Source: a virus
Strand: one strand, 5' to 3'
Length of the DNA: 42,942 nt
Virus record (IMG/VR): IMGVR_UViG_3300021197_001293
Coordinates: 1 to 42,942 of that record
Positions within the stretch are counted from its first letter, which is position 1. Every line of letters begins with the position of its first letter. Made by a program: the position numbers and the translations under genes. A model generated the notes under the pieces. That model was not told where the DNA came from, did not search any database, and saw nothing but the letters and a program-made list of their open reading frames with translations. Shown one piece after another: positions 6,942 to 29,100 of the stretch.

Positions 6942-9900
6942 ATGTCTAAATCTATTAGAGTAAGAACACAAGTTGGAAAAGACCAAAAAGTAAGTTTTGA
7001 GTTAAAACAAGATTTTGACTTATTAGAAATTTTAAGTTTATCCCTATCACAAAATGATGTTTACACTAGAATGTGTGCTGATTTTGGTGTGGTAGTAGGT
7101 AGAGTAATATCTAATGGAGGTTACGGAATACCCAATGCTAAAGTATCTGTATTCATTCCAATAGATAGAGAAGATGAACAAAACCCCGTAATACAACAAC
7201 TATATCCCTACACCCAACCCTTTGATACAACTCCTGACGGAAAAAGATATAATCTATTATCAAAAGACCCAAATTTTGATTGTCATGTAGCGGTAGGGTC
7301 ATTCCCATCAATAAACGATGTTTTAGAAAAACAAGCAATAGAATATGTTTATGATAAATATTATAAATTTACAGCTAAAACTAATGAAGCGGGTGACTTT
7401 ATGTTATATGGGGTACCAGTAGGAGACCAAACTCTAGTTATGGACGTGGATTTAAGTGATATTGGTTGTTTTTCTATGTTACCAGAAGATTTTAAACAAT
7501 TAGGATTTCCTGATTCTGATTTTGATGGGACTAGATTTAGAACTGATGCAGCGATAGATTCACTACCACAAATTATAGGACAACAAAAATCTATAGATGT
7601 TAGACCATTTTGGGGTGATGAAGAGTTTTGTAGTGCTGCTATAACTAGAGTAGACTTCGACCTTTCAAACTCAGGAATTAAAATACAGCCAACATCAGTT
7701 TTAATGGGTAGTACAGCTACAGATACCGATAAGGAATCTGTTAACAAAAGATGTAGACCAAGAAAACATATGGGGGAACTATGTAGTCTTACAAGTCAAC
7801 CAGGAATAATAGACTGTATTAGATACACACCATTTTTTAAGGAGGATACATCAGCTTTTCCAGAATGGCCTTATGATGGTACTGGTGGTGGTGGTGGACA
7901 AGTCCCAGTAATGGAAAGATTTTATTTTGATGATGGTGGTAGAGTAATTGACGAAACTGGTTCTTTTTTAGTACATGTACCTATGAATTTAGACCATGTT
8001 ATTACAGATGAATTTGGTAATTTAGTTAAGTCTAATGACCCTACTTTAGGGGTGGCTACAAGAGCTAGATGTAGATTTAGAGTTAGGCCAGAATCATCTG
8101 CTGGTACATCTAGACAAAGAAGACGTGGTTCACATTTAGTACCACAAATTAGAGAATTTGGACCACACACAGACACTAATGGTGATTATCCTGAAATAGG
8201 AGAAAATTTGGTTGATGGTGACGGTAATAATAAAAGATATGACCCATATTGTTTTTCTATAGAATATAGTGATTACCATCCTTGGGCTCAGGCAAATTTA
8301 ATACCAGGAGCAAAAGATTTATTTTATGACATGTCATTCAACAGAGTATATACGTACTCTCAATTTCATGACCACGTTAAACACAACGGTAGAAGACAAT
8401 TTATTGGGGTTAAAGAAATATTACCAGAACAAGACCAACAATGTTCTACAAGTGCAATGTTTTTCCCAATCAATAGTGCGGTTAGAAGAGCAAAAACTAT
8501 AATATTTTTAAATCAATTTATTCTATTTTTTGTATATGGGATATATTTGATGATGAGTTCATTAATTGGTATTATCGCTACAGTTTTTGGTATTATAATG
8601 GTGGTAGTCGCCATAGTAATGGTAGTTATATGTATGATACACGACCTACTTAGTGCTTGGGGGTGGCTTGCAAGTATGTTAGGTATAGGACCAGCACCTA
8701 CAATATGTTCCCAATTAACTTGGAGTAGTTCCTGTCAACCCACCTGTACTGTTTTCGGGATACCTTCAGGGTTTATTTTATTCACCTTAAGACAAAAAAA
8801 ATATCCAGAATGTGAAGAGTGTATGTGTAGAACTAATGTACAAGGAATAAATGGTAATGATATGGCATTGTTGGGGCCTGGGTATGGTTGGAGTAACGAT
8901 GATTGTACAGTCTCAACCAATATTTGGGGGATTGAGAGAGATGTGGTTTGTTGCCCCGATTCATATGGTTATGACTCAACAACCTCATTTCCACCAATGA
9001 ACGTTTTAAATAATCCTACCAATGTTAATAATGATTTGGGTGCTGGTGGGGGTTGTTATGTTAAACCAATTTGTATGAATGTAGCATGTCTCGCATTTAA
9101 TACTAATACAGTATTAATAAGAGAATGGTATAGAAGAGAAAAAATATTTTCTGCATTGTGTAATGGTATAATGAATTATTTTTGGGAAAATGCTTGGGTA
9201 AACGGGTTCCTATACCAATTCCAATTTAGAGCTAAACTATCTTATGATGCAGGTAACGATACTTACGCTACACCAGCGACTAGTTACTGTAAAAAAGTAG
9301 TATACTTACACCCTAATGACCATACTTTTTATTATAGGTGTACACCATTTAGATGGCAATCAGCAACCACAGGTAAATTTATTGGTGACACAGATGGTGT
9401 AAAAGGTGGAAATAATAGTGATAATGAACATTCTGCTGGTGATATGGACCGACATCTTTATTTCCCAACTACGATTGTTGACATGGGGTCAAGAAACCAA
9501 TGTATACAACAAATATGTTTAGATGAAAAATTTGCTGAAGAATGTTCAGTAACAGACCAGATAGGTAGTACCTCATTCCAAGATATAACAGACTTGGTTT
9601 CTGACGCTTATAATATGAAAGCCAGACAACAGAATTTACAGTTAGGTGATTTATTTGCTAGACCAGAATCAGAAATTGGTGGTGATATGGCACAAGCTTT
9701 AATGCAAAATTCTATGTTAGGTGTGTTTGGGTATGAAACTAATACAACTACAACATCTTGTGATTGTAGTGTAGCACCAGCCCCAAGCATACCAGCAACA
9801 GGTGATATAGAATATCCTTTACCTAATAATTGGAATGATACTGGTGTGTATGTTGACTACGCTGTTAATGTAAATGCGGGGTACGATATTCAATGGAGAC

Positions 9901-10361
9901 CTCATTTATTTACCGCTGGTACCCCAACCATCATGACAGGTATGGATTTAATAGATTGTTTAGCTTATGAATTATCTGGTAGTTCACAAATAGTACCTTA
10001 TTATCTTTGGAGGGTAGATGGTTCTAGTGGATTCGGTACAGAAAATAATGATTGGCAATACACCACAGGTTCATATCAATCACAAACTTATAATTGGACA
10101 ATACCAGGTACACCATTCATCAATACCGCACCACTACTTATACATTCGGGGGATTACCAAAATAATGTAGGTGCGTTGAATAGTTTACCACAACCTGGAA
10201 CTCCAGGTGACGCATACCCACCTATGACACCAAACACAGGGCCCTCTATGTTGTTCTCACAACCATTATTTTATTATTTTGGGTTGAGGCCAGGAGAAAC
10301 AGCTTATAATAAATTTATTAGATTATATGTGGATGAAGAATTATCTAATAGTGTAATATAA
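6942..10361 (+). CDS. Large tail/baseplate protein with carboxypeptidase-regulatory-like domain and hydrophobic segment
   Basis: The 1139 residues can be divided as follows. An N-terminal part is followed by a beta-sandwich resembling carboxypeptidase-regulatory-like domains (about 48-172): GVVVGRVISNGGYGIPNAKV, then after an insertion NEAGDFMLYGVPVGDQTLVM. A Gly-rich turn (TGGGGGQ) comes near 310. A very hydrophobic stretch at 519-566 is long enough for two membrane helices. A Cys-rich region follows (about 585-720, with PECEECMCR and VVCCPD). The end is beta-rich, with no further motif I recognise. Position after gp25- and gp6-like genes, and the size, suggest a baseplate or tail-tip component. 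I cannot link it to T4 gp7 by motif; the gene at 22728 is a better gp7 candidate. The membrane-like stretch is unusual for a virion protein. Its TAA overlaps the next ATG. Confidence 0.8.
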   Translation: MSKSIRVRTQVGKDQKVSFELKQDFDLLEILSLSLSQNDVYTRMCADFGVVVGRVISNGGYGIPNAKVSVFIPIDREDEQNPVIQQLYPYTQPFDTTPDGKRYNLLSKDPNFDCHVAVGSFPSINDVLEKQAIEYVYDKYYKFTAKTNEAGDFMLYGVPVGDQTLVMDVDLSDIGCFSMLPEDFKQLGFPDSDFDGTRFRTDAAIDSLPQIIGQQKSIDVRPFWGDEEFCSAAITRVDFDLSNSGIKIQPTSVLMGSTATDTDKESVNKRCRPRKHMGELCSLTSQPGIIDCIRYTPFFKEDTSAFPEWPYDGTGGGGGQVPVMERFYFDDGGRVIDETGSFLVHVPMNLDHVITDEFGNLVKSNDPTLGVATRARCRFRVRPESSAGTSRQRRRGSHLVPQIREFGPHTDTNGDYPEIGENLVDGDGNNKRYDPYCFSIEYSDYHPWAQANLIPGAKDLFYDMSFNRVYTYSQFHDHVKHNGRRQFIGVKEILPEQDQQCSTSAMFFPINSAVRRAKTIIFLNQFILFFVYGIYLMMSSLIGIIATVFGIIMVVVAIVMVVICMIHDLLSAWGWLASMLGIGPAPTICSQLTWSSSCQPTCTVFGIPSGFILFTLRQKKYPECEECMCRTNVQGINGNDMALLGPGYGWSNDDCTVSTNIWGIERDVVCCPDSYGYDSTTSFPPMNVLNNPTNVNNDLGAGGGCYVKPICMNVACLAFNTNTVLIREWYRREKIFSALCNGIMNYFWENAWVNGFLYQFQFRAKLSYDAGNDTYATPATSYCKKVVYLHPNDHTFYYRCTPFRWQSATTGKFIGDTDGVKGGNNSDNEHSAGDMDRHLYFPTTIVDMGSRNQCIQQICLDEKFAEECSVTDQIGSTSFQDITDLVSDAYNMKARQQNLQLGDLFARPESEIGGDMAQALMQNSMLGVFGYETNTTTTSCDCSVAPAPSIPATGDIEYPLPNNWNDTGVYVDYAVNVNAGYDIQWRPHLFTAGTPTIMTGMDLIDCLAYELSGSSQIVPYYLWRVDGSSGFGTENNDWQYTTGSYQSQTYNWTIPGTPFINTAPLLIHSGDYQNNVGALNSLPQPGTPGDAYPPMTPNTGPSMLFSQPLFYYFGLRPGETAYNKFIRLYVDEELSNSVI

Positions 10362-12178
10362 TGAGTAATAAAAAAAACATAAGAATTGTTAGGGGCGAAT
10401 CTAGATTTGCTGGTTCACAAAATAAAGATATTAGTTTACAACCTTTATTAACGTCAGAACAACGCCCAATGATTGAGGGGGATAGAAATCTAGTTCTTAA
10501 TCTTAGAGACCAGTTTGATTTTGAAAGAGATTATTCTACAATTTATAGACCATATGGTAAAATAGATGTTTTATATAGTAATAGGATAACAGGTGAAACT
10601 AATGACAATAGAGTTTTGGAGTATATGTATTTTACACCGGATTATATAGGTTGTCCAGATATTACGGTAGCAAGTGTAGGGCAAACTTATTGGAGTGGTC
10701 CACCATGTGTCGGATTACCACCATCTGATTTATTTACTTTTATGCCACCATATAGATATGGTACAGTAAACGCTTCACAGTATAGTAGTTTGGATTCATA
10801 CCAAGATAATTGGGTTGCTTATATATCCTATATTTCAGATTGTGATAGTGGTCAAACTATGAGTTTTAGTGTGGGTGATGGTACAGACGGAATAAATTTA
10901 AATAGTGGTGATGGGATTCCAGCTCGTATACAAGTAATAACTACAAACGGTAAAGAAACAATAAGAATAACAACACCATCACCTCACGGTATATCATCCG
11001 GAGAATTTGTAGAATTACAGAGTAGTGCATCAATCAGTAACTTTGGTGGGGCCACACTAGTCTCAACAGTGCCAATTACTACAGACATAAATAATGTGTC
11101 CGTAACCACCAATAAAAACATATTTAATGTAGATTTTTTGGGTAATGAATTTGCTAATTCAGAAACTCACGTTTTAAATATATACACTAAAGGGATAGAC
11201 ATAACAGCCATACCAACAAATTCTTTTTGTGTCATAAAACGTATAATAAACATAGACAATATTAATGAAACACGTTCTAGATATTGTAGTCACATCCACA
11301 CATTAATAACTAACTCTTCAGATTATACATTGGATAGGACAGGTTTTGAAAATGGTATTTACAATAAAAAAGGTAGGGTTTTTAAGTCTAAAAAAACACC
11401 AGATGGTTATGGTGATAAAACGGTAATCCTAGAAGATTTTAAGTCTTTTTTGTGGAATACAAACATGGATGTGGATGTGGAAGAATTTTTAGACAATCTA
11501 AATAGACCATTAACTGACTTATACCTAACAATATTCCAGACAAATAGAAATCTTATGTGGCATTATGAAGCCCCAGCCAATTCCCCAGCAGGGTACGGAT
11601 GGGATTGGAATTTTAGACATAACGGATTTGTAGACCCATTTGTAAATAACGACACCAACCCAACAAACTTATTTCAAAACACAACTAATGGTTTAGACCC
11701 GTTACCTTTAAGTGGTACAACATATAGAGGTGCCTTTGTTGAGTACAACCCTTTTGAATTAAAGGAAAGGGTAGTTTCTGAAATCAAACACTCTTTAAAA
11801 TTTAATACAGATGCTATGTATGAATTTGCTGGGTACCCAAATACATCTAGTTCACAAGTACATGTAAAATCTATATACAACTATCAACCACATCACAGAA
11901 TACCAATACGTAAACTATCAACAACTATAAGTTATGAAGATAGTCTATTTACAACACCACCATACGCTACCTATTCTTTATCAGAGGGGACTTTTAGGTG
12001 GAGACCAATATTACCTATAGATTTTTTTGAAGATGGGGATAATGGGGTCACTTACCCATATTTAAATGATGCACATTATCCATATTTAAATATAGAATTT
12101 AAAATAGAACCTATAATGTTTGGGTATAGCTCTAGTAGCATAAATGTAGTTTCAGGATTTGTCGATGTCTGCGAATAG
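10361..12178 (+). CDS. Probable tail/baseplate structural protein, function unknown
   Basis: The 605-residue protein starts with a basic stretch (MSNKKNIRIVRGESRF) and is otherwise Asn/Thr/Ser/Tyr-rich with many predicted strands, as in virion proteins. Recognisable features are a WSGPPCVGLPPSD turn (about 111-123), a beta-rich middle (about 165-290), a helix-like segment LEDFKSFLWNTN, and a conserved-looking end with EYNPFELKERVVSEIKHSL and FRWRPILPIDFFEDG. No signal peptide or membrane segment is seen. The ATG overlaps the previous stop (TAATG), implying coupled translation with the 1139-residue protein. In T4 the gp6-gp7 genes are followed by gp8, but I see no motif proving a gp8 match. 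Confidence 0.78.
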   Translation: MSNKKNIRIVRGESRFAGSQNKDISLQPLLTSEQRPMIEGDRNLVLNLRDQFDFERDYSTIYRPYGKIDVLYSNRITGETNDNRVLEYMYFTPDYIGCPDITVASVGQTYWSGPPCVGLPPSDLFTFMPPYRYGTVNASQYSSLDSYQDNWVAYISYISDCDSGQTMSFSVGDGTDGINLNSGDGIPARIQVITTNGKETIRITTPSPHGISSGEFVELQSSASISNFGGATLVSTVPITTDINNVSVTTNKNIFNVDFLGNEFANSETHVLNIYTKGIDITAIPTNSFCVIKRIINIDNINETRSRYCSHIHTLITNSSDYTLDRTGFENGIYNKKGRVFKSKKTPDGYGDKTVILEDFKSFLWNTNMDVDVEEFLDNLNRPLTDLYLTIFQTNRNLMWHYEAPANSPAGYGWDWNFRHNGFVDPFVNNDTNPTNLFQNTTNGLDPLPLSGTTYRGAFVEYNPFELKERVVSEIKHSLKFNTDAMYEFAGYPNTSSSQVHVKSIYNYQPHHRIPIRKLSTTISYEDSLFTTPPYATYSLSEGTFRWRPILPIDFFEDGDNGVTYPYLNDAHYPYLNIEFKIEPIMFGYSSSSINVVSGFVDVCE

Positions 12179-13028
12179 AATACAAATAAAAGCGTCATTA
12201 AAAAATAAAAAAGTTGTTGTGCCTTTAGGTCAAATTTTTGATGAAGTAGGTAGAGAACAACTTTTAGAAATGTATGATGAGATAGAGTTACAAAATAATA
12301 TAAACTATATACAAGATTATGAAACTACTAGATACGCACCTAATTACCCACCTAAATTTGAAATATATTACGAATTTGAATTTTGGGATAGTGCAAATTC
12401 TACCTATGTCAGTGATTTTAATATATTAGATTATAGTAATTCCGAATTAGCAAAAAACGCACAAGCCTTCACTAAAAGTTTTTTTAAATTTGATTTTTTT
12501 GATACACCAGTCAGAGAAGAACAAAAACTACTATTCTCAACAATAATGCCTACCAATAACTGTAGAAAAAAAAGTGTAGTTATAGACCCAGCAGAAGACC
12601 CAGAAGAATATTGGAATCAAAGAAGTGAAGGTATCAACTTACCACAATATGATGTATATACACCAGCTTTCTCTGCTGCATCAGCTCCTGAAGGTGCTAA
12701 TGAAAATTATTATTTACAATGGTTAAAAGATAGAGATTTATTTACTGGTAATACATTTTACATGACCTGTAAATTTTTTAATGGTAAAACTGGCACAGTC
12801 ATCAGAATGTTAAATCAGTTACCATCACCGATACAAGGACAATATAGTTTTGAAGATTTTTTCTATTACCAGATAATTTTAAATATAGAAACTGGTAATA
12901 CAAACCCAAAATATAATTATACAGTACACCCGTATAATTCAGTAGCTGGAGCTACTGGAATAACATTAGCACCAGCAGGTGAAACGGTCTTAGGACCAAT
13001 AAAATTTTATGAATACGTAACTACATAG
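12165..13028 (+). CDS. Probable tail structural protein, function unknown
   Basis: I chose the ATG at 12165 (287 residues, MSANRIQIKAS). An in-frame TTG at 12159 would add only two residues and is a rarer start. The gene overlaps the previous one by 14 bases. The protein opens with a strand-rich segment (IQIKASLKNKKVVVPLGQIF), then an acidic helix (DEVGREQLLEMYDEIEL) and a Tyr/Phe-rich beta region (KFEIYYEFEFWDS). An Asp/Glu/Pro turn (VVIDPAEDPEEYW, about 139-151) follows. There are no catalytic motifs. It is followed one base later by the giant adhesin gene, so it may be a connector for that protein, but that is only context. Confidence 0.75.
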   Translation: MSANRIQIKASLKNKKVVVPLGQIFDEVGREQLLEMYDEIELQNNINYIQDYETTRYAPNYPPKFEIYYEFEFWDSANSTYVSDFNILDYSNSELAKNAQAFTKSFFKFDFFDTPVREEQKLLFSTIMPTNNCRKKSVVIDPAEDPEEYWNQRSEGINLPQYDVYTPAFSAASAPEGANENYYLQWLKDRDLFTGNTFYMTCKFFNGKTGTVIRMLNQLPSPIQGQYSFEDFFYYQIILNIETGNTNPKYNYTVHPYNSVAGATGITLAPAGETVLGPIKFYEYVTT

Positions 13029-13029
13029 T

Positions 13030-16000
13030 ATGGATATACAAAAGTTTACAATACGAAGAAATACCCCGGACACTGGGAGTACTGGAACAATACCCTGTAC
13101 TGGAGGTACAAATTTTTACCCTATAAACCTTAGTACAAATTGTTCGGGAGACACGATGTATAACTCAACAGGTTCTCAAATAATGAGTGCTTTAGATAGT
13201 GGTGTTATGTCTAGTTTTCCGGATGAACTAAAAGATTGTTCACCTACAATCCCATGTGTTATTTTATGGGACGCGGCACTAAGTCCAAACCCAAATAATT
13301 GTTATAATCCAGACGGGTATAGTTATGTTAAATTTAAAGGTTTAGTACTTACTTCTGGAGGAACCTTCTACACTGGTAGTTATAATGATTTAATTACAAT
13401 ATATGATGTTACAAATACAAACATAAATCAACCGTTAAACTCACAAGGTGTTAATGCATTTTGGGGTGAAAGTGTGGAAATATGCAGTTGCTTGGACCCA
13501 CTAGACGACATTTTATATAAGTTACCCCTAACATTAACACAAGACTTCAATGATATAGGGCACTATAGTATTTGGGATGGAAGAATAGACCAACAACAAG
13601 TATTTTCTAATTTTACTTTTACAGCTAACACTACAGGGAATGGTATGAAAATACAAGTATATAATACAACCAACTTTGGTTCGTATAAAGAATTCCAACA
13701 ATCCCCATATAGAATTGATTGGGGTGAATGTGATTGTTCTATACCAGTTAATGCTAACGGTTATCCTTGTTGTGAAGATTTACAATACCCATCATTAACA
13801 AGTGAATATGAATATGTAAATCCATCACAATATAGTATTAAGATAACACATGAAGGTCCATGGGGACCAACGTCTGTTAGTCAAATAATAACGGTACCGA
13901 ACCTAACCTACACCCAGATACTTGCCCAACCATTTTCATCAGCACCACCAACAGGAGCTGGAATGGGTGGAGCTGCGGTAGGAGCAGGGGTAGCACTATC
14001 ACCAACAACACCAGGAGGTAACCCATATCAAGTAAATTTAAGTGGTCCTAACCCAACACCATCAGTAACACCACCACCAATGTTTACCTCAACAGCGTAT
14101 CACGGTACTTACGGTACTATTGGTACACCAAACTATTACCCTTTAGATTCTGGTACTAACATAAATCAATATAGTGGTACCTCTATAGGTTGTTTTGAAC
14201 TTACGGGTATCACAGAAAGTTCAGTAGGTATATTTTCTACATATAGTAATGTACCATCTACAACAGCTCCAGGATTTTTACCTAATGGGTTTGAAAAATT
14301 TGTCACAGTACCTGTTGGTGGTGACGTTATAGACCCATTAACTAACACTATAACAGCAGGTATGATGGGTGAGATATTTGAAGCAAATGCAATATACACT
14401 GGATATACAATATCTTCCGCAAATGGACAAACTCCTATAGATTTTTATGACTTTCCAAATGGAATAACAATTTTTGTAGCTACTAGTTGTGGTTTAAATT
14501 CTTTAGCGTTTGGTGGTGAAGATTGTTTTGAATGTCCCGAAGAAACTTGTGAATTTTGTTTAACTAAAGATGAATATATTGATAGGGTTACACTCACAGT
14601 AGAAACTATAACACCTAATCCACCATCTAACCCACCTAATTGGTCACCTTTTGTAGATTATGTTAAAGGAGATATCGTATATGATGTAACACCTCAGTCT
14701 TGCTGTTGTTATATTGCTGTAACAGATATAACACAAACAAGTAATACTGGAGGTAACAGTCCATTTGCAGGAATACTACCACACCAACTATATCAAGGTG
14801 TCTATATTAATCCTACTGGACCTGATGTACATGTGTGGGAAGGTTGTACACCTGATTGTGTGAGTTGTCCTACAGGAAGTGCTTTACCTTGTGAAGACCC
14901 TTATAATATTTTTAATGCGTATTCACCTATGGGTACTATTGGGATAGCGGGACAGTGGAATAACACACAAGTTTTTAACGCTGGTGAGTTTATATATGGT
15001 CCAGACGGAAATTGTTATAGAGCAATAAATAATGTACCAGCTGGTATCGTACCAACAGCCACTACTAACGTAACAAGTTGGGATTACGTGGGATGTGCAA
15101 GTTGGGTGTGTCCACAAGACTTAACAAATGTTGGTGTTGACGTTTGTGAATTAATTTCAGGGAGTACTCCTAATAGTTTTACTTTCTACGCGGGACCAGG
15201 AGGTTGTCTAACCGCATATAATAATGGTAATTGCCCTGTAGATGATAGATGGCATTGCCCAAACCAATATAATTGTGACACACCTGGATGTATCCAAATA
15301 GATTATACACATCCACAATATAATAATCCTGGTTACCCACTATCAGTTACTTTTTCATCAATGACAGACTGTGAAGACTGGTGTAACCCAATAGCTTGGT
15401 CATGTACAACACCAACAAATACACCATGTTGTTCTGAAGTTTCGTGTGCTGCTTTACCAGATTCAGACTATTATGATATAATGACAAATTATATACTTGC
15501 TACAGCACAAGTAACCGCCACTAATAACCAACTATTCCTAGACCCATTTTATACTTTAAATGATTGTGAAACTGGTGTCCCAGGACAAGGAATATCCGCA
15601 TGTTGTGATTTTACAGCTTGGGAATATTTTTGTGACACAGGGTGTGTACAAATAACAGGTGGTAATTATCCCACTTCTGGTGATTGTGCAAGTGACCCAA
15701 ATAATCTAGGTGGTTTACCAGGTCCTTGTGGTTGGGACTGTTATGACCCCTGGTACCAACCATGTAGTGGTGGTACCGGTTTTCCTGGTAGTACTACTTG
15801 TGTACCTTGTTATACTAATGGTTGTGGGCAATACAATACCTCAGCAGATTGTTGTACCTATTGTAACCCACCATTAACTGACTGTTGGGTTTGTTTAAGT
15901 GGTTCAGCTACACCATGTCAAAATCTAGCACCTTGTCCTACACCATTACCAACTTGGGAGGCGGACTGGGCTATTGACCCAGCACTTGTACCATTAAGTG

Positions 16001-19000
16001 GGTTTGGAGCAAATCCAAATCCTACAGACCCAACCTTAGCTTTACTATATCCAAATGGGTCCTACGCTACTGCACAAGATTGTGATGATAATTGTCCTAC
16101 AGACGGTGGTATAGATTGTTTAGTTAGTTTAACTAATGGTAGTAGTTATGGTAATTGTGCAAATTACCCAAACCCAGTTGCATTACCTAGTGGTTGGGGT
16201 TGGTCACCTGGAGGCCCTTATGATTCTTATTCAGCTTGTTGTATAGCAACAGGTTGTTGTGATATAGAGTGTGATGAAAACTCTTCGATATTTAATCCAA
16301 TGAGTGGATTATATGACCCATCATGGCCATATTGGCCTTGTGTTTACACTCCTGTTGCAGTAGGAAGTGCTAATATACCTTGTAGTCCTTTAGGACCAGT
16401 ATATTGTACATTTACAGAATGTGTGACAGACAATCCAAATGGTTGTATTCCTGACGGAGAAACTTGTGAGTGTGCGTGTGACCCATTTACTGGTGGTGTT
16501 GGTGTAGACCAAGAAGAGTGGGATAGTACATATAATAACTATCAACTATATGATTATGTATCTTGGCAAGTAGGAGCACCTGATGTTTGTTGCTATTATT
16601 GTGACGTACCAATGGGTAGTAATCCTTACGTGGGTCCACCAGCAGGATTTTATGATTGTAATTATTTTATACCTGGAGGACCAGACGCACCAAACGGAAC
16701 ACCAAATGCTTGGATTAGTTGTGGTAGCACCCCAAGTGGAAATACGGTTGGTGGTTGTGACCCATGTCAACAAGTTGATGGGGATACCTATAGTTGTGAC
16801 TTTATTGATGGTTGTGTTCTTAACGTTATACCATGTAATTTTGTTCTAGGTTCAGAAGCAGCTAACAACTGTTATACTGCTAGTACATGTATGGACCACT
16901 GTAAGGCAGGTTGTTTTTGTGATGATAATGGTACACCATCAGACCCTTCGGATGATTTTACAGATTGTGTAATGCAACAGGATGTTATAAATGGAGTAAC
17001 GACCAACTCATCAAGTTGGTACGGGTTTTTAAGTGTGTGGCAGTGTCAACAAGGCATACTAGCACCACCACCAAGTAATTTAGATTGTTGTTCTGGTGCA
17101 ACTAGTAAATTCCATTGTGACGATACTGAATGGTGTAGTTCATTAAATCCTTGTGTAGCACCTGATGGTTGTGGATGTATAGAAGTTTTTCCTGGAGACC
17201 CACTGTATCCTACAGCAGCTTATACTACTTTATCCGACTGTCAACAAAATTGTAAGTGGGCTTGTGACCCCTCATCAACCGGAGGACAATGTCAATTTGT
17301 AGGTAATAATCCATTAAACTTATTTCCGGAACATACTTCAGCTTTTGACTGTTGGTCCAATACAAATAACTGTAACTGTACAGCACCTTCAGTTTATTTT
17401 TGTGATACGAATGCTGGACAATCAGCAACTACTACAAATTGTTTCCCAGAAACTACCATAGTAAGTTGGATTGCTACACCACCTTTCCCAGGATGGACCC
17501 AAAATCAAGTATTTGGACAACAGGGTACTGGTACACCTTATCCAGCTGGTGCTACTGGATTCGCTTCCTTGGGGGACTGTCAAGCAGCTTGTAGATTTTG
17601 TTGTGACACAAATGTTAGTTGTACTTGTGACTTAAACCCGTATAACTTTTCCTGTGCGTTATCTATAGGAGATTGTATAAGTTTACAAGCTCAATATCCT
17701 TGTTGTCCACAAACAACAGAATATTGTTGTGATGAAACATTAGGGTGTATAAGTTTTGTTGGTACGATGCCAGCAAGTTGTGTACACGGACCATTCACAA
17801 CACCAACCCAGTGTCAAGACGAGTGTAATTTCATATGTGGAGAATGTAAACCAGATTTAGGTCCTATAGCACAACCAGACCCATGTCACTGCAGTCTTAT
17901 AACTATACCATTTTATTCAGCAGTACCACCATATGGTGCTTGTACAGCTTATAATACTTTAGCAGACTGTACAGCCAATTCTTACCCATTAGGTGGTACA
18001 GGTTCTAACAATACTACATGTTGTCCGTGTGAAGATTGTAAAACAGCAGGGAGTGTTACATTCCCAGTAATTGACGCCGCTGGTACTTGGTCGTTAAGTA
18101 ACGTTGTAATACCAACGCCAATAGTAGGTAGTGTACTTGCAACCCCAGCATGGACTCCGGCGATAAGTTATAATATAGGTGATGTTGTAATTGACGCTGG
18201 TGGAAGTGGAGGAACATTAACTAGTTGTTGTTTTGTTATGGTGTATGACCAATATGACCACGTTTTACATAGTTTTATGAATCCACACCAATGGTATGAC
18301 GCATACGCGAATGAATTAGCAAATAATACACCTAGTACATTTCCTGGTGGACAACCAAATGGAGGGTACCCAATGTGGGTGCCGTGTGACACCAGTTGTC
18401 CTACCACAGCTGCAACTCCTACGATGTATGAATGTCTTCCAGGGCAACCAATATACACTGGTCCTTGTATGAACGCAACTCTGCAATACCCAATAAATCC
18501 AGTAGGAACAACTGGGTACGGAGCGATGGGTATTAATGCAGGAACCAGTTCCTGGTCGTTTCCTCAAATATTTTTTGATTGGATAGTACAAACTTTCCCA
18601 CCAAATACGGCATTTGCTAGTAAAAAAGCTGTAAGTCCAAACGCTGTCAATGCTTCCTGTCCTAATCCTGACCCTAATCAGTATGGTGGTGCTGGTGGAA
18701 TGTTTCTGACACGACCTAGATGTCATAATCAAAATGTTATATATACCCCAGCAAATGGATGCGGAGGTTTATTTATTGATTGGAATGACGCTATCGCTAA
18801 ATTAAATCTGGTTAATGCAAATCTAAGTTTACCACAAACATTTAATACAGGTATGAATGTACAAGAAGCAAGAGATGAAATGACTAGTTATGGGGAAACA
18901 AATGTCGGGCTTTTCGCTGGATACTCTAGTTGTCAATGTTCACAAGTAGGACCATGTTCTTGTCAACAATGTACTAGTGGACTTAACTGTGTATATCCAA

Positions 19001-20970
19001 ATTTAACATTATGTAATTTAGCAGCAACTGCAACTCCTTGTTGTCAACCACCACAAACAGGATACTATGTTTGTGATACAGGAAATCCAAACCCAGGTAC
19101 TGGAGTTTGTCCTTGTGTGTGGGACGCAAATGCTATTGTGGGGTATAATTCTATCTCAGATTGTACAGGTGACACCACTACATGTTGTTACCAACCAACT
19201 CCAACAATGTGGAAATGTAACCCTTATTCAGCAACTACATCAGGATGGTCAGGTTGGGATGGTTATTTACAACAGATGAATACTCTAGGGGCTACAACGT
19301 TAAATCATTTTACTATAGACGCTGCAGATGCTCAATATCTAGTATCTATGGGGCAGTCTCAAGCATACGCCAATACAATAATAAATGCAGGATATTTCCC
19401 AGATGCACTAACAGCTTTACAAGTGTTTTTTGCTAAAGTTAGAGGGTTGGGTTATGATTTTGATGGTCCTGGTTCTGTATTGAGTGGTGCTCTAATTGGT
19501 GCTTACTGGTATAGTTTTACAAATTATGTTAGTCATGTACAATGTTTTCCATATACAACACAAACAGGATTACAACAATCCCCTGACTGTTTTGCACAAG
19601 TAGCGGATGGTACCTATCGTTTGAAAAGATTATTGGTGGACATTGGCCTCCCATCTATATTTGGTGGTGGTGGTTCTGCTATAGTCTACTTTAGTGACCC
19701 TAATTATTGGTATAATGTTATGACAAATAATAGTCAACCTAACAATTGTTTAAGTAATGCCAGTGTGAATGTAATGTATAGTCCGAGTCAGGCGGGTAGT
19801 CCTCAGTATAGTCCTGATGGGTACTTACTTGACCTTGGATTACTTATTAGTACCATAAATAGTGACCCTAATATACCTTGTAATGGTCCTTCAGCACCTA
19901 CCACAGCACTTGTGGTTAATTCTGAACCAATGTGTGGACCACCATGTGAATGTTACCAACACCCTAGTGGTGTATATAGTTCACTGTCACAATGTGAACT
20001 AGACCCAACAAATTGTTGTGATACAATTATACCAGATAGTTGGGATTGTGTTAATTGTCCGGGGACATGTAATTGTTTAGACCCAGGAACCGGACTAGGT
20101 CAATACCAATCCCTGGGTGCTTGTCAAACTGCTTGTGTAAACCCATTATTAGGTTGTGACGATTGTGATATTACCTTAGCTAATGTTTTAACTTCAACAC
20201 CAATCTATTTGGGTGGATGGGACCCAAACACCCAATATAATTTAAGTGAGTGTGTAGTTTCTGATATTGATAATTGTTGTTATTGTTGTGTACCAGCAGG
20301 ACCTATGCCAAATAGTGCAAACCCATACAGTACTCAAAGTCTACAAACTATGTTATTTCAAGTTGTTGCAGCTTCAGTATGTAAAGATGGCCAAGGAGAC
20401 CCTAACACTATTGTAGGTGTAAATATTGGTGGGGGGATGTGGTTACCGTGTAACATTGATGCTAATAATAACCCATGTGGTACTGGGCCGGCTCAAGAAT
20501 GTGATGATTGTAATGTGACACTAGCTAACGATTTACCAACACCAGTAACTTTCCCACACCAAACAATTAATACAGCATATACTTCTGTACCATTTCAAAT
20601 AGGTCAATGTATATATAATGTAGACCCTACAAAAATCAACGAAAATTGTTGTTGGTGTTGTGGTTGTGAATTTGGTTGGGATAATGTTGATAACAAATGT
20701 GTAGAACCACTTCCTATCGGTCCTGGTGGACCAAGTTTAGCAACAGCTAGGTCTGCACAATATAGTTCAGTAATGCCACCACCTTGTCAAATTGTTAATA
20801 TGGACCCAGGTAGTGGTGACCCTAACACTGGTGATTTTATAGTTAATAATGGTACCTATAATAGTGCGTGGTTACCTTGTGGTGTTAATAGTCTAAATAA
20901 TCCTTGTGGTGGTGCAAATAGTTCATCCTCATCATCCATACAACCGTCCTCATCTATAATACCTTTTTAA
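13030..20970 (+). CDS. Giant cysteine-rich modular protein, probable receptor-binding adhesin
   Basis: This single 2646-residue open frame is the largest gene here. The N-terminal part (about 1-500) is beta-rich with Pro/Gly/Ala stretches (GAGMGGAAVGAGVALSP). Six modules have the carbohydrate-binding CBM5/12-like pattern W...Y..GD.V...CY....W..C, at about 537-606, 641-688, 1162-1231, 1706-1787, 2394-2474 and 2517-2617. Between them are about 17 copies of a small motif, W.C..GC...G.Y.S..DC...C (about 700-2375). The last 270 residues contain a duplicated unit. The end is Ser-rich (SSSSSSIQPSSS). No signal peptide or membrane segment is seen, as expected for a virion protein. The polysaccharide target is unknown. 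CBM-like assignment is by pattern only, and many modules are degenerate. Confidence 0.82.
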   Translation: MDIQKFTIRRNTPDTGSTGTIPCTGGTNFYPINLSTNCSGDTMYNSTGSQIMSALDSGVMSSFPDELKDCSPTIPCVILWDAALSPNPNNCYNPDGYSYVKFKGLVLTSGGTFYTGSYNDLITIYDVTNTNINQPLNSQGVNAFWGESVEICSCLDPLDDILYKLPLTLTQDFNDIGHYSIWDGRIDQQQVFSNFTFTANTTGNGMKIQVYNTTNFGSYKEFQQSPYRIDWGECDCSIPVNANGYPCCEDLQYPSLTSEYEYVNPSQYSIKITHEGPWGPTSVSQIITVPNLTYTQILAQPFSSAPPTGAGMGGAAVGAGVALSPTTPGGNPYQVNLSGPNPTPSVTPPPMFTSTAYHGTYGTIGTPNYYPLDSGTNINQYSGTSIGCFELTGITESSVGIFSTYSNVPSTTAPGFLPNGFEKFVTVPVGGDVIDPLTNTITAGMMGEIFEANAIYTGYTISSANGQTPIDFYDFPNGITIFVATSCGLNSLAFGGEDCFECPEETCEFCLTKDEYIDRVTLTVETITPNPPSNPPNWSPFVDYVKGDIVYDVTPQSCCCYIAVTDITQTSNTGGNSPFAGILPHQLYQGVYINPTGPDVHVWEGCTPDCVSCPTGSALPCEDPYNIFNAYSPMGTIGIAGQWNNTQVFNAGEFIYGPDGNCYRAINNVPAGIVPTATTNVTSWDYVGCASWVCPQDLTNVGVDVCELISGSTPNSFTFYAGPGGCLTAYNNGNCPVDDRWHCPNQYNCDTPGCIQIDYTHPQYNNPGYPLSVTFSSMTDCEDWCNPIAWSCTTPTNTPCCSEVSCAALPDSDYYDIMTNYILATAQVTATNNQLFLDPFYTLNDCETGVPGQGISACCDFTAWEYFCDTGCVQITGGNYPTSGDCASDPNNLGGLPGPCGWDCYDPWYQPCSGGTGFPGSTTCVPCYTNGCGQYNTSADCCTYCNPPLTDCWVCLSGSATPCQNLAPCPTPLPTWEADWAIDPALVPLSGFGANPNPTDPTLALLYPNGSYATAQDCDDNCPTDGGIDCLVSLTNGSSYGNCANYPNPVALPSGWGWSPGGPYDSYSACCIATGCCDIECDENSSIFNPMSGLYDPSWPYWPCVYTPVAVGSANIPCSPLGPVYCTFTECVTDNPNGCIPDGETCECACDPFTGGVGVDQEEWDSTYNNYQLYDYVSWQVGAPDVCCYYCDVPMGSNPYVGPPAGFYDCNYFIPGGPDAPNGTPNAWISCGSTPSGNTVGGCDPCQQVDGDTYSCDFIDGCVLNVIPCNFVLGSEAANNCYTASTCMDHCKAGCFCDDNGTPSDPSDDFTDCVMQQDVINGVTTNSSSWYGFLSVWQCQQGILAPPPSNLDCCSGATSKFHCDDTEWCSSLNPCVAPDGCGCIEVFPGDPLYPTAAYTTLSDCQQNCKWACDPSSTGGQCQFVGNNPLNLFPEHTSAFDCWSNTNNCNCTAPSVYFCDTNAGQSATTTNCFPETTIVSWIATPPFPGWTQNQVFGQQGTGTPYPAGATGFASLGDCQAACRFCCDTNVSCTCDLNPYNFSCALSIGDCISLQAQYPCCPQTTEYCCDETLGCISFVGTMPASCVHGPFTTPTQCQDECNFICGECKPDLGPIAQPDPCHCSLITIPFYSAVPPYGACTAYNTLADCTANSYPLGGTGSNNTTCCPCEDCKTAGSVTFPVIDAAGTWSLSNVVIPTPIVGSVLATPAWTPAISYNIGDVVIDAGGSGGTLTSCCFVMVYDQYDHVLHSFMNPHQWYDAYANELANNTPSTFPGGQPNGGYPMWVPCDTSCPTTAATPTMYECLPGQPIYTGPCMNATLQYPINPVGTTGYGAMGINAGTSSWSFPQIFFDWIVQTFPPNTAFASKKAVSPNAVNASCPNPDPNQYGGAGGMFLTRPRCHNQNVIYTPANGCGGLFIDWNDAIAKLNLVNANLSLPQTFNTGMNVQEARDEMTSYGETNVGLFAGYSSCQCSQVGPCSCQQCTSGLNCVYPNLTLCNLAATATPCCQPPQTGYYVCDTGNPNPGTGVCPCVWDANAIVGYNSISDCTGDTTTCCYQPTPTMWKCNPYSATTSGWSGWDGYLQQMNTLGATTLNHFTIDAADAQYLVSMGQSQAYANTIINAGYFPDALTALQVFFAKVRGLGYDFDGPGSVLSGALIGAYWYSFTNYVSHVQCFPYTTQTGLQQSPDCFAQVADGTYRLKRLLVDIGLPSIFGGGGSAIVYFSDPNYWYNVMTNNSQPNNCLSNASVNVMYSPSQAGSPQYSPDGYLLDLGLLISTINSDPNIPCNGPSAPTTALVVNSEPMCGPPCECYQHPSGVYSSLSQCELDPTNCCDTIIPDSWDCVNCPGTCNCLDPGTGLGQYQSLGACQTACVNPLLGCDDCDITLANVLTSTPIYLGGWDPNTQYNLSECVVSDIDNCCYCCVPAGPMPNSANPYSTQSLQTMLFQVVAASVCKDGQGDPNTIVGVNIGGGMWLPCNIDANNNPCGTGPAQECDDCNVTLANDLPTPVTFPHQTINTAYTSVPFQIGQCIYNVDPTKINENCCWCCGCEFGWDNVDNKCVEPLPIGPGGPSLATARSAQYSSVMPPPCQIVNMDPGSGDPNTGDFIVNNGTYNSAWLPCGVNSLNNPCGGANSSSSSSIQPSSSIIPF
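15250..20150 (+). repeat. Array of about 17 short cysteine-motif repeats within the giant protein
   Basis: The coding sequence repeatedly yields Tyr or Phe, a small residue, two or three variable residues, Cys, three residues, Cys. Examples are AYTTLSDCQQNC, GFASLGDCQAAC, FTTPTQCQDEC, GQYNTSADCCTYC and GQYQSLGACQTAC, usually preceded by a W-x-C or F-x-C strand. Copies diverge at DNA level, so this is an old protein-level repeat rather than a recent tandem array. Four to six cysteines per unit suggest disulfide- or metal-stabilised mini-domains. Confidence 0.75.
20155..20925 (+). repeat. C-terminal duplicated module in the giant protein
   Basis: Two consecutive units share ordered landmarks. 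Unit one has CDDCDITLANVL (from residue 2376), a CBM-like core, GDPNT and WLPCNIDANNNPCG. Unit two has CDDCNVTLANDL (from residue 2491), a CBM-like core, GDPNT and WLPCGVNSLNNPCG. The second is longer because of an inserted Cys/Gly/Pro region (CCWCCGCEFGW onwards). This shows the protein has grown by internal duplication. Confidence 0.75.
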
Positions 20971-20976
20971 TTTAAA

Positions 20977-21555
20977 ATGATTATGGAATATGGGAAACAT
21001 AAAAAATATGAAATAGGGTACATCAAAGTAGATAAAAAAATTTATATGCCTACAGTAGAAAGGTTGGATAAATGGGTTGATATAATATCTAAAAAAAAAT
21101 GGTATAATAATTTTGAATTTTATATTACAGGTTCTTTTACAAGTCACATAATGAAAATAAGACCTTTTTGGCCTACATGGGATGTAGACATGGTTGTAAC
21201 ACAAGAAGAAGGTAAAGAATTGGACTACGATTTAATTAAAAGAGTCTTACTGGAATCTGTTGAGGTTGCTTTAATAGATTGTGATTTTTGGATGGACCTA
21301 AGTTTCCAAAGAAAAAAAGATATATGGGGGTTAAAACCAGGACAATCACTAAATAACGCAGACACTCACATAGTAAAAGCAATCAAATATAGTAATAAAG
21401 GTAAGGTAGAGTTAACTAAAGATTTATGGGAAATACACAGAGAGTTTCCCCTAAAAAAACATATAGCAAGAAATAAGTTTGGTTTTAAATACGGTAAACC
21501 AATTTCAATAAAAGAATATAAAGAAAAATATTATGAACAAAATGTGTCAGTATAA
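20977..21555 (+). CDS. Nucleotidyltransferase-fold protein
   Basis: The 192-residue protein carries the hallmark pattern of the nucleotidyltransferase superfamily. G52-S53 sits in FYITGSFTSH, D69-V-D71 in WDVDMVV, and a third acidic residue D107 in WMDLSF follows on the next strand. From family knowledge these acids bind two metal ions and the enzyme moves a nucleotidyl group to a protein, RNA, or small molecule. The substrate here is unknown. The C-terminal third (about 130-185) is basic and helical. The Met at codon 3 is an equally good start. It lies between adhesin and tail genes, a surprising spot for an enzyme. Fold confidence is moderate; a catalytically dead relative is possible. Confidence 0.7.
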   Translation: MIMEYGKHKKYEIGYIKVDKKIYMPTVERLDKWVDIISKKKWYNNFEFYITGSFTSHIMKIRPFWPTWDVDMVVTQEEGKELDYDLIKRVLLESVEVALIDCDFWMDLSFQRKKDIWGLKPGQSLNNADTHIVKAIKYSNKGKVELTKDLWEIHREFPLKKHIARNKFGFKYGKPISIKEYKEKYYEQNVSV

Positions 21556-21812: not shown

Positions 21813-22721
21813 ATGGCATTAGGAGCATACGGAATAAAAAGACCAGCTGACGTACTTCCAGACGACGTACAAATTATTGTACACTACACACCAAGTAGGG
21901 ACGCAACCTCTAATTTTGTAGTTTCACAATTACCAGCAAATACCTTATTAACACCACATTACCACCAAAATAATACTGGTGGGGCAAACGGTGTTGAAAT
22001 TCTAGGTGGACTATACGATTTACAATTACCGTCCAACGTATTCGCATCTAAAGGAATTTATACAATTTATATTAGACCAGTAGAGATAAGAACTACTATA
22101 ATAGATTGTGGTATCTTAGCTTCTCTACCAAACGTAAAAGGGCTTGTCTTTGATTTAAATAATGTACCAGCAGCATATAGAAGTAGATTTAAACCCCATT
22201 CTTTAGTGGGTTATAGAATAGAATACTTACAAGCAAATGGAGAAAAAATACATAACTTTTTTAGAATAGTAACATCTAATTTTTATTGTGAACCAGTAGC
22301 AGCAAACCTAACAAACCCAAATCAGGTAGCACCAAGATACGTCTACACAAACACTGAAACAAATTTAATATTTTGTACACTAACACCAACAAGTGCCCCA
22401 TCAAATAATCCTAACGCGATTCCATTTATAGGGCAACCGGGACAAAACGTTATAATTACAAATACATTTTTTAACCCAATTGTTTTAGATGTAGAAATGG
22501 TAGACCATGATTTCGACACTTTAGCTATTGCATTATACGGTAACCAATCTAAATCAATAGACGACGGAATCTACACTCTTTACGACTTTAACCAAAATAT
22601 CTATCAACAATACGATTTATATGAGGTTAGAGACCAATTTAATGACCAATTATACGAAATTAGAGCAAATAGAGGTAACAATATAGATTTTAGTAAGACA
22701 TTTAGTACAATAAACGTTTAA
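21813..22721 (+). CDS. Probable tail/baseplate structural protein, function unknown
   Basis: The 302-residue protein is Asn/Thr/Pro-rich and strand-rich with no catalytic motif. It begins MALGAYGIKRPADVLPDDVQ. Notable segments are LTPHYHQNNTGG (about 50-61), IYTIYIRPVEIRTTIIDCG, a middle helix-poor region ending NPNAIPFIGQPGQNVIIT, and an acidic Tyr-rich C terminus (IYQQYDLYEVRDQFNDQLYE). No signal peptide or membrane segment is visible. It precedes the gp7/tail-protein-I-like gene by 6 bases, so it is likely part of the same wedge complex. Its stop codon lies within CGTTTAACGAG, an 11-mer that recurs at 36940-36950. Confidence 0.77.
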   Translation: MALGAYGIKRPADVLPDDVQIIVHYTPSRDATSNFVVSQLPANTLLTPHYHQNNTGGANGVEILGGLYDLQLPSNVFASKGIYTIYIRPVEIRTTIIDCGILASLPNVKGLVFDLNNVPAAYRSRFKPHSLVGYRIEYLQANGEKIHNFFRIVTSNFYCEPVAANLTNPNQVAPRYVYTNTETNLIFCTLTPTSAPSNNPNAIPFIGQPGQNVIITNTFFNPIVLDVEMVDHDFDTLAIALYGNQSKSIDDGIYTLYDFNQNIYQQYDLYEVRDQFNDQLYEIRANRGNNIDFSKTFSTINV

Positions 22722-26140: not shown

Positions 26141-29100
26141 ATGGAAGAAAAAGTATATAGAACAAAAATAGATTTAAGAGTTTTAGGAGATGAAATAAAA
26201 TTTGTTTTTTTTATGTCCGGAAATGTTAATAGTAGAACTCCTTCTGAAGTAATAAGTAAAAGAGCGTCATTTAATTTTATTTATGATACTAATTACCCAG
26301 TAGATGTTATTGTAGAAATAAAAAGTGGTGTACAAAGAACATTTCTATATTTTGACGAAAAAATACTAAAATATAATAATATAAATAAGTTTATAGGGTT
26401 AAAACCCACACCCATAATTTTAGAAGTTTTTACAAATTCTAAAGGCAATCTTGGGTTTGAAAAAATAAACACCTCAATGACTGGTGCTTTTCTAAGTCAT
26501 AAAAACTATTTTAGTAGTAGTCCTAATAGTGGAGCTATAGAACCTTTTGGTAAAATTATTGGTGGTAAAGCACATGCCTTACAAATGATAATACCAGGTG
26601 TTACATTTAGAAGAAATACAATACATAACCTATCTTTTGATATGGATATTTTCATAGAAAAATGCGGTCAATATGTACATTCACTGGACTTTAAGGTTAA
26701 TTTAGATGATGATAAAATAATTAAAGGTAATATTATAACTATAGAACCTGTAAAACAAATTACAACACCACCACAAACAATAAAATTAGAAACAACTTAT
26801 CTAACACTACACTCTAAAGATTTGTCGGATAGAGAAGTGATATACGACTACAAAAAACAATTAACACCACAAAATTGTTTACCAGAGACTTTAGATTTAA
26901 TTAGTAGTAGAGTTTACGCGGTGAAAAACCCATTAACACCAAACGTTAACTTAAATGATGTAAACCTACCAGCTAACAATTTAATACAAATACCATATAA
27001 TATTTCTAGATTTGTAGAAAACAATGAGGTTAAAGAAAGTAGAAAAGTATTTAAAAATGGAAAATATGTGTACCCATTAAATTGGGCAAGTGAATTACAA
27101 AATAATGAACTTTTTAGTGAAGCTGACAAATGTTACTCTTTAAAATTTTCTACCAAGACACAATTAAAAGCTTTTGAAGAAAAATTAAAAACACAACAAA
27201 TCGGAAGTATAGAAAATTATCCTACAATCAACTCGCAAGGACAAATACAAAATATACCCAGAACTTATTCTAGAATATCACAATGGGTTAACAGAAGTTC
27301 TTTAAATACATTTACAGATGTAAGGTTTACATATACTGTCGATGGTGATATTAACACAATAACTATTTGTCCTAGTAAAGAATGTACTGTAGGCCCCACA
27401 AAAATAGGTTCGGAAGAAGGATTATATACATCAGGTAATGAATACTTACTACCAAACGGAGAAGAATATGTAGGTTTCTACCATGTACACCCAGAAAAAG
27501 GTGCAATGGTTGGAGCAAAACATAGTCCTAAAGCACATGACCTTCTCACAGCTCTGTATACTATAGCACCTATTAGTGCTAACACTGTAACAGATTTTTG
27601 TTTTACAACATACGATAAAAAAGATGAAACAGAATTATACACAGGATTTACAGCTACGACCGGTGACCCTAATATAACTAATAAAACCTATGACCTACAT
27701 TTAAGTGGAGCTTCTTTTTCAGCTAATACGATAGTGCCTATTAGTAATATAGAGAGACAAACAAAAATGAAACTAATCGGTGATACTACTCTAGAATACA
27801 GACCATATACATTTAGTGAAGCTTATGGTAGAAATAATGGGACATTAATTTTTAATGAGTCGGATGTGGACAACTACCTTACTTATTCCGCATTAACTAG
27901 TGGTGTATATAGGTTTACATATAAGGGGTATTTAAATATAAAATATACTGATAGTCAGTGGTGTGAGTACCTAGAAAAAGCATATCCTTCCGGATTTACA
28001 GGTAGTTACCCAGGTAACGATTATGAGATTAAAAGACTTATAAATACCTCCATAATCCAAGCGGGTGATGGTGAAAAAGAAGTTGTAGCAACAGACACAG
28101 ACTTTAAATTTAATGCTGGTGAAAAATATAGAGATTGTACATCTGGGAGAGAAAAAAATATTTGTGGTGATGCACCAGATAATACTGGAATATTAAACTT
28201 TAATTTTACAGCTTCTATAATACAAGGTTCATCGACAGGTGGTACCGGAACAACATTATCTGAGTTTAAAGTTGTAAGAAGTAGAAAAACAGATGGGTTT
28301 GCAAATGATTATTTAACATTAGATGTTGATAAAAATGATTTAACTACTAGTGGTATGAATAGTTGTATATTAAGTTCTATGACATCATCTACCATATTTC
28401 ACAAACAAATACCAGTTACATTGGACACGGGATTAATAAACTTAATTAGTGGACAAACCATACAATTAAAATATGAAACAGATTGGAACTCAACTTCTAA
28501 AGGTGGGTTCTATTACTTATCCGGTGGTGCAACAGCTATAGATATAAATTTAGGTCATAGATTAGATACTAGTGGGAACACTTTAGAATCTCCTTATTAT
28601 CGTGGTATAAAAGCATCTAATGGTGTTAGTAGTAAAAAATTATTCTTTGATTCAACCAAAAAATCACTACCATTTGAGTTTAAAGTTGGTGACACTACAC
28701 AAACAATAGAACTTGATGGTACACTTTATTTGTCAGATAGTGAATGTGGTAACATACGAACACCTTTTGTCGATAATAATACCTTTGGTGGTTTAAATTT
28801 TGTAGATAGTACAGCTCCTGACGGTAAATTGGTTTGGGATATAAGTACAGAAAAACCTACAAATAACTGGCAAAGAATGATAGAAAATAATACAATAAAA
28901 GACTACATGTTAAGTGATAAATCTAATTCACAAATGACCCATATGAAAGAAAACGGGTTATTCTCATTCTACCTACCAACCTATAACAGTTATGAGTACG
29001 GTGCAAAATGTGATTTTAATTTCCCACAATTAAGCCAGTCTTATATTATAGTTAATAACTTTAAAAATTATTACGGTAATACATTATTACATTATATAGT

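Follow-up and report, generated by a model that had tools for sequence, protein, structure and literature searches.

Here we ask what is encoded by a giant cysteine-rich gene in a stretch of viral DNA of 42,942 nucleotides (hereafter, the window). The gene had been described earlier, from the letters alone, as a single frame of about 7.9 kb, and this frame proved exact in position, strand and length:

13030–20970, + strand: candidate giant adhesin gene, an open frame of 2646 amino acids with 197 cysteines

The cysteine share of the product is 7.4%, compared with 0–4.8% in the 21 other window frames that were counted. No match to the 2646-residue protein was found in PHROGs up to E 0.1, and the Pfam search returned CBM_5_12 alone (E = 1). 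We consider it likely that the product is a baseplate-associated host-recognition adhesin of uncultured, contractile-tailed phages, in which exchangeable cassettes are carried on a disulfide scaffold; we read the contigs of the family as marine. Host-recognition adhesins are familiar proteins; as far as our searches show, what is new is a probable disulfide mini-domain that carries exchangeable inserts, and no report of the giant protein or its repeat was found among the literature matches listed.

An N-terminal anchor in a baseplate block

The protein begins with a domain of 535 residues that is conserved between distant relatives and includes a PKD-like stretch. The features of this region and of the conserved gene block around it are as follows:

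4535–4996, + strand: putative gp25-like baseplate gene, so named for its position ahead of gp6, an order shared with Flavobacterium phage immuto
4998–6839, + strand: gp6-like baseplate wedge gene (phrog_6, E 2.6e-16)
6942–10361, + strand: 1139-residue protein with 32 cysteines, in the conserved block by synteny
10361–12178, + strand: 605-residue protein, in the conserved block by synteny
12159–13028, + strand: 289-residue protein directly upstream in the window, with a relative upstream in 54 of 54 loci
13030–14634, + strand: N-terminal anchor domain, residues 1–535, 38–50% identical between distant relatives
13711–13902, + strand: PKD-like stretch of the anchor, residues 228–291 by alignment, with WGDG in relatives and WGEC in the window
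21813–22721, + strand: 302-residue protein downstream, present in 37 of 54 loci

Sub-threshold PKD matches were found near the equivalent of residues 228–291 in two relatives (L105, E 0.0017; L111, E 0.0024). A scan of viral contigs with seven anchors gave 55 loci. The complete frames of the family range from 540 to 2991 residues (leaving out L113, with 377 residues and an unclear start) and keep the anchor throughout. The anchor is also present in short forms of 540–644 residues, in which the profile of the cysteine repeat finds nothing at 10 bits. Synteny was counted over 54 loci (L069–L122), some of whose contigs are duplicates: gp6 lies upstream of the adhesin in 53 of them, and the 17 loci without the downstream 302-residue gene are pieces too short to reach that far. 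The protein thus combines a constant N-terminal anchor with a variable distal part and is encoded in a tail and baseplate block, both of which are features of tailed-phage receptor-binding proteins. We propose that the conserved N-terminal domain would anchor the giant protein on the tail baseplate, and that the remainder would form a disulfide-hardened string made up of CBM5/12-fold modules together with small mini-domains closed by disulfides.

Directly after the adhesin gene (20977–21555) lies a 192-residue protein that looks nucleotidyltransferase-like by eye; tblastn did not find it in many of the loci that reach that far, for example L073. Further downstream, a cysteine-rich protein of 269 residues (36118–36927) includes a dockerin/EF-hand-like pair just below the Pfam cut-offs; L111 and L112, which are shorter forms of the adhesin, show similar weak matches.

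No match was obtained when the giant protein, two of its shorter forms and a second repeat protein were compared by tblastn with 50,697 phage records, or when named phages were searched with the DNA around the terminase of a relative, G001. By gp6 and by the G001 terminase, the nearest named phages include, each at less than 30% identity, immuto (Flavobacterium), Microcystis phage Mel-JY01 and a 484-kb phage that is uncultured; the G001 terminase is 27% identical to that of immuto. A pattern search of genome contigs for bacterial relatives matched 22 stretches, none of them a true relative. From the distant phage relatives, we would guess that the host belongs to the Bacteroidota. The ribonucleotide reductase of the window (2191–4095) is 68% identical to that of Mel-JY01 and 62–63% identical to those of Vibrio and Oceanospirillum phages; compared with this 68%, gp6 is 28% identical between Mel-JY01 and the window, and the reductase has possibly been transferred.

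CBM5/12-like modules

The earlier note had counted six modules with the pattern W...Y..GD.V...C...W..C, and all six were recovered by a profile at E 1.6e-6 to 1.1e-22, values that are partly by construction, as the profile was seeded with these same six modules before one round over relatives. It also picks up non-seed modules in relatives, such as three in L014 (E 8e-15 to 2e-16). The modules, as delimited by the profile, are:

14635–14859, + strand: CBM5/12-like module 1, residues 536–610
14950–15099, + strand: CBM5/12-like module 2, residues 641–690
16516–16731, + strand: CBM5/12-like module 3, residues 1163–1234
18148–18399, + strand: CBM5/12-like module 4, residues 1707–1790, for which a structure was predicted
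20215–20460, + strand: CBM5/12-like module 5, residues 2396–2477
20575–20889, + strand: CBM5/12-like module 6, residues 2516–2620, hypervariable

For module 4, a small three-stranded CBM5/12 fold was predicted (pLDDT 81, pTM 0.73; input stack of 43 modules), in keeping with the CBM-like fold that had been expected. Among the 37 structures listed for this model in the structural alignment, chitinases, chitin deacetylases and chitin-binding domains account for 30, many of which represent one of a few proteins more than once; the Z scores are middling, 5.8 at best. The remaining seven are phage or injection-system chains, including 9b45, 8fqc, 9rkv and 5jsd. Foldseek matches of the model were weak (best E 2.2), and the sole PDB sequence match up to E 10 comprises two stretches of chitin oligosaccharide deacetylase (E 0.51).

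The modules have in common with CBM5/12 (PF02839, ChtBD3-type) the W...Y..GD.V motif and the small predicted three-stranded fold, but they differ in having extra cysteines (CCY...W..C) and long loops and in scoring below the Pfam cut-off of 26.2 bits, the window reaching 9.9 bits and the best relative scanned (L111) 19.2 bits. In CBM5/12, an exposed aromatic pair of the Y.A.WW type forms the chitin-binding site. This pair is absent from the six window modules when judged by eye. The CBM5/12 identity proposed earlier therefore holds for the predicted fold, and it holds neither at the Pfam cut-off nor for the aromatic pair. We read the modules as CBM5/12-fold units with putative sugar binding.

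These results bear on the original interpretation of the protein as a multivalent fibre that binds chitin-type polysaccharide through its six modules, with the cysteine repeats as spacers. The mostly chitin-related fold matches and the deacetylase sequence match speak for it, whereas the failure of every module to reach the Pfam cut-off and the missing ligand pair speak against it, and in the phage chains of similar fold the role may be structural. We regard this interpretation as unlikely, also in view of where relatives differ (see below).

A four-cysteine mini-domain

The second element of the protein had been described as about 17 copies of Y.S..DC...C. Taken literally, this motif occurs 0 times in the 2646 residues. 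Relaxed to [YFH].[ST]..xC followed by a second cysteine, it occurs eight times (shuffle mean 0.24), and the half-motif without the second cysteine occurs 17 times (mean 1.5 and maximum 4 in 300 shuffles). Repeat profiles, of whose ten seeds two come from the giant protein itself, find eight or nine copies at 8 bits and seven at 10 bits, compared with 0–0.05 in the shuffled protein (20 shuffles). Bias-corrected scoring misses the repeats of a 2948-residue relative (L060), and uncorrected scores were therefore used, with shuffled controls. A loose four-cysteine scanner was much less convincing, with 12 matches (one listed twice) against 3.4 in shuffles. A recurrent cysteine repeat is thus real, in seven to nine copies by profile and 17 relaxed half-motifs, although its literal form is not. 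The copies outside the long insertions described below, together with a single copy in another long protein, are:

15763–15867, + strand: cysteine mini-domain, residues 912–946, 12.9 bits
17152–17256, + strand: cysteine mini-domain, residues 1375–1409, 16.6 bits
17257–17373, + strand: cysteine mini-domain, residues 1410–1448, 39.4 bits
17533–17604, + strand: C-terminal half of a cysteine mini-domain, residues 1502–1525, 25.8 bits
19063–19188, + strand: cysteine mini-domain, residues 2012–2053, 50.9 bits (profile seed)
20038–20142, + strand: cysteine mini-domain, residues 2337–2371, 51.7 bits (profile seed), for which a structure was predicted
29762–29857, + strand: single four-cysteine mini-domain in the other long protein (26141–30061) of the same block (profile seed)

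Across 37 units from the window, its relatives and other long proteins, four cysteines are invariant (37/37). Nearly all units start with aromatic-x-Cys, followed by the second cysteine, mostly G.[YF].S, and an end resembling C-x3-C. The number of cysteines is even in 33 of the 37. The units were hand-chosen as complete, and both the invariance and the even counts partly reflect that choice. In the 210-kb relative L060, a 1740-residue protein (L060:16480–21699) combines mini-domains with a Hint domain (PF07591, E 1.5e-21), which perhaps serves self-cleavage or splicing.

The structure predicted for a single repeat is a compact domain (pLDDT 88.2, pTM 0.58), with a hairpin formed by residues 4–7 and 14–16 and a helix at 28–34, and so the recurring compact domain that had been anticipated was obtained. 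As had been noted, the repeat belongs to no family that can be named: it has no good Pfam match, the best for one repeat being a weak match to a CCCH finger (E 0.015), and Foldseek against the PDB gave nothing better than E 6. Of four chains that were re-aligned to the model, three reached a Z of at least 2 and all three are protease inhibitors: 3t62, which is titled Kunitz, and 2uuy and 1toc, which we take to be Kunitz-type (Z 2.3–2.6 over 32–35 residues, 1.9–2.5 Å). The Kunitz domain has six cysteines in three disulfides and an N-terminal inhibitory loop. The predicted mini-domain faintly resembles Kunitz/BPTI in its hairpin and C-terminal helix, and F.S..DC...C also occurs in BPTI. It differs in its length of about 30–40 residues, in its four core cysteines, the only invariant ones, and in being too short for the N-terminal half with its inhibitory loop. 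PF00014 is not among its Pfam matches, and the repeat profile gives BPTI 3.8 bits, less than the 7.6 bits reached by the highest-scoring of 200 shuffled BPTI sequences. True membership of the Kunitz family was rejected on these two sequence tests. Two predicted viral proteins in BFVD match the model well for so small a structure (probability 1.00 and 0.99, TMq 0.76 and 0.78, identity 43% and 35%, Foldseek E 0.031 and 0.34), and the mini-domain may thus occur in other viral proteins.

The repeat had been called a disulfide or metal mini-domain, and the cysteine pattern in orthologs favours the former. In seven orthologs, 134 of the 137 window cysteines in gap-free columns of residues 1–1800 are invariant (98%), the next residue being tryptophan with 78%. 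The columns that change do so in neighbouring pairs (1118 and 1126; 1375 and 1381; 1723 and 1732), the two members of a pair sharing a single pattern of gain or loss; three further changing columns at the cut end of the alignment were set aside. Changes in neighbouring pairs point to disulfides; as the three pairs sit on few branches, this is an indication that falls short of statistical proof. The mini-domain would consist of a β-hairpin and then a helix, closed by two disulfides (probably Cys1–Cys4 and Cys2–Cys3) and in some units by a third.

Alternatively, the mini-domains could be metal sites of the ββα Cys4 zinc-finger kind, perhaps folding in the reducing cytoplasm. Four cysteines on a hairpin and a C-x3-C helix do recall a zinc finger, as does the weak CCCH match. 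However, a Cys1–Cys2 stretch of any length (4–376 residues; see below) is ill-suited to a zinc knuckle, additional cysteines come in pairs both in the 33 even units and in the orthologs, and all three chains listed in the structural re-alignment are protease inhibitors, one titled Kunitz and two taken to be Kunitz-type. Disulfide-rich virions also exist, in the phages Milano and 7-7-1 (PMC10811340, PMC12796354). The free Cys1–Cys2 length and the paired cysteine changes in particular weaken the zinc finger, which we hold to be improbable.

Insertion slots and probable exchange of inserts

Between Cys1 and Cys2, the mini-domain has an insertion slot whose length ranges from 4 to 376 residues, a feature that the earlier note had not seen. 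The window has two long slots, each followed by the second half of its mini-domain:

18427–18930, + strand: cassette slot 1 of a mini-domain, 168 residues that begin at Cys1 (YEC) and end ahead of Cys2 (CQC)
18937–19044, + strand: C-terminal half of the mini-domain holding insert 1, residues 1970–2005, 9.6 bits
19210–19932, + strand: cassette slot 2, in the next mini-domain, 241 residues that begin at Cys1 (WKC) and end ahead of Cys2
19936–20019, + strand: C-terminal half of the mini-domain holding insert 2, residues 2303–2330, 34.8 bits

In the four-cysteine scan, the window has long gaps of 178 and 244 residues and the 2948-residue protein of L060 has gaps of 376, 144 and 174, whereas the long gap measures 251 residues in L002, 173 in L013 and 162 in L014; the remaining units listed for the five proteins have ordinary gaps of 4–43 residues. 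Most inserts show little or no sequence relationship to one another. The slot-2 inserts of the window and L012 are alike (BLAST E 9e-40), and the other insert–insert E-values are 7e-3 to 3e-5, computed without composition correction. We propose that the hairpin turn is an open socket that would take either a few residues or a whole domain of about 140–380 residues, and that the inserts on the turns would be the parts that meet the host. Recombination at the turn would swap whole inserts around a constant frame, so that the phage changes what is bound. As exchange at this point spares both cysteine strands, any domain with close ends could be accepted.

The loci L001 and L002 illustrate such a difference. 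Their proteins are 99% identical in the anchor and only 21% identical in insert 1. The DNA is 95–100% identical over 3.2 kb upstream and on to about residue 1785 (with one 150-bp block at 87%), falls to 40–48% in insert 1 and returns to 93–95%; it is 72–97% identical over slot 2 and on to residue 2465, drops once more in the C-terminal module and reaches 95–99% for 1.8 kb past the gene, the last four blocks (0–19%) being the end of the L002 slice. Identity breaks off immediately after FEC-IEGG and resumes immediately before PCYCQ, the two points flanking the predicted hairpin turn. A pattern scan places the L002 insert in its own contig only, with one distant relative, L092; this makes a chimeric assembly a possible source of the L001/L002 difference.

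Insert 1 was excised for 21 of the 22 giants (proteins of more than 2300 residues; all except L095), leaving out the duplicates L071, L093, L099 and L104 and the truncated L089. Insert-1 clusters cross the anchor tree of the 21 giants: L072 (the contig of L002) groups with L092, to which its insert is closest (44% over 164 residues, E 1.6e-23; anchors 38%), and L075 (the contig of L012) groups with L079, L082, L083 and L098, its insert matching the L083 insert at 50% identity, with 41% between the anchors. Their respective sisters, L073 and L076, carry the insert-1 type of the window. Well-supported branches of the anchor tree force at least two origins each for insert types B and C, whereas clusters D and F say little, as the cuts for L077, L084, L086 and L090 are far too long (785–798 residues). 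Over all types, the tree requires 9 changes, compared with a minimum of 7 and a shuffled mean of 14.2; types thus mostly follow the anchor lineage and exchange is occasional.

Among 21 pairs with an anchor identity of at least 0.80, which overlap and are not independent, 17 contain a low-identity segment and four contain none. This segment falls in slot 1 in 12 of the 17, in slot 2 in three more and only elsewhere in two; several of the 21 pairs also differ in the C-terminal module. Module 6 (20575–20889) is a second hypervariable place, at which L001 and L002 differ too. That the segment lies in slot 1 or 2 in 15 of the 17 pairs also counts against the chitin-type fibre, a point tempered by the variation of module 6. 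Chitin binding as the main function is weakened by the missing ligand residues and by variation that often falls in the inserts.

It could also be argued that the protein is a structural whisker, rod or head decoration, the C-terminal diversity of which reflects drift or recombination with no role in host recognition. Binding of a receptor or ligand by the adhesin is putative, and a single mini-domain occurs in another long protein of the block, both of which suit such a structural role. By contrast, the gene sits in the baseplate block, the anchor is constant while the distal parts vary, and a whole insert is replaced in-frame within a background of 95–100% identity. A purely structural role seems to us quite unlikely, and we favour the host-recognition adhesin.

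The T-even gp38 adhesins carry hypervariable loops on a polyglycine sandwich (PMC12892980) and so show variable receptor-binding parts on a constant scaffold, as would the giant adhesin. In the latter, however, the scaffold would be made of disulfide mini-domains, and inserts of about 140–240 residues take the place of loops within a 2600-residue chain that has its own anchor. The Agrobacterium phages Milano and 7-7-1 have disulfide-rich virions, in which tail, baseplate or capsid proteins are stabilized by many disulfides; many of the disulfides reported for these phages link neighbouring subunits, whereas those of the adhesin would lie inside small repeated domains (PMC10811340, PMC12796354). 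Tentaclins and other receptor-binding proteins are reported to be diversified by DGR systems (PMC10743442) and resemble the giant adhesin in being diversified, whereas the adhesin varies by replacement of whole inserts. No reverse transcriptase (PF00078) was found in the six records searched, which are possibly fragments, and DGR diversification was tentatively set aside on this result.

More tentatively, and with slightly less than even confidence, we suggest that a Kunitz-like hairpin and helix, minus the inhibitory half, serves in an uncultured phage group as a general socket in the manner of an antibody framework, whose hairpin turn takes up unrelated domains in several giants of one phage, these domains being traded among lineages to alter host recognition. 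The 55 loci make up a wide adhesin family of uncultured phages with a defined place for the exchange of whole inserts. If our reading is true, changes of host range in ocean phages could be followed by sequence-level markers, and the mini-domain would be a compact scaffold of natural origin with a hairpin turn that accepts large insertions.

Two features of the inserts were noticed by eye. The stretch SW....I..L is common to several of them. The 376-residue insert in the 2948-residue protein of L060 (gene at L060:7601–16444), for which Pfam gave no match, has at its start a strand and a D-[ST]-[ST]-S motif, reminiscent of a von Willebrand A domain, and a second stretch of the same protein resembles this insert.
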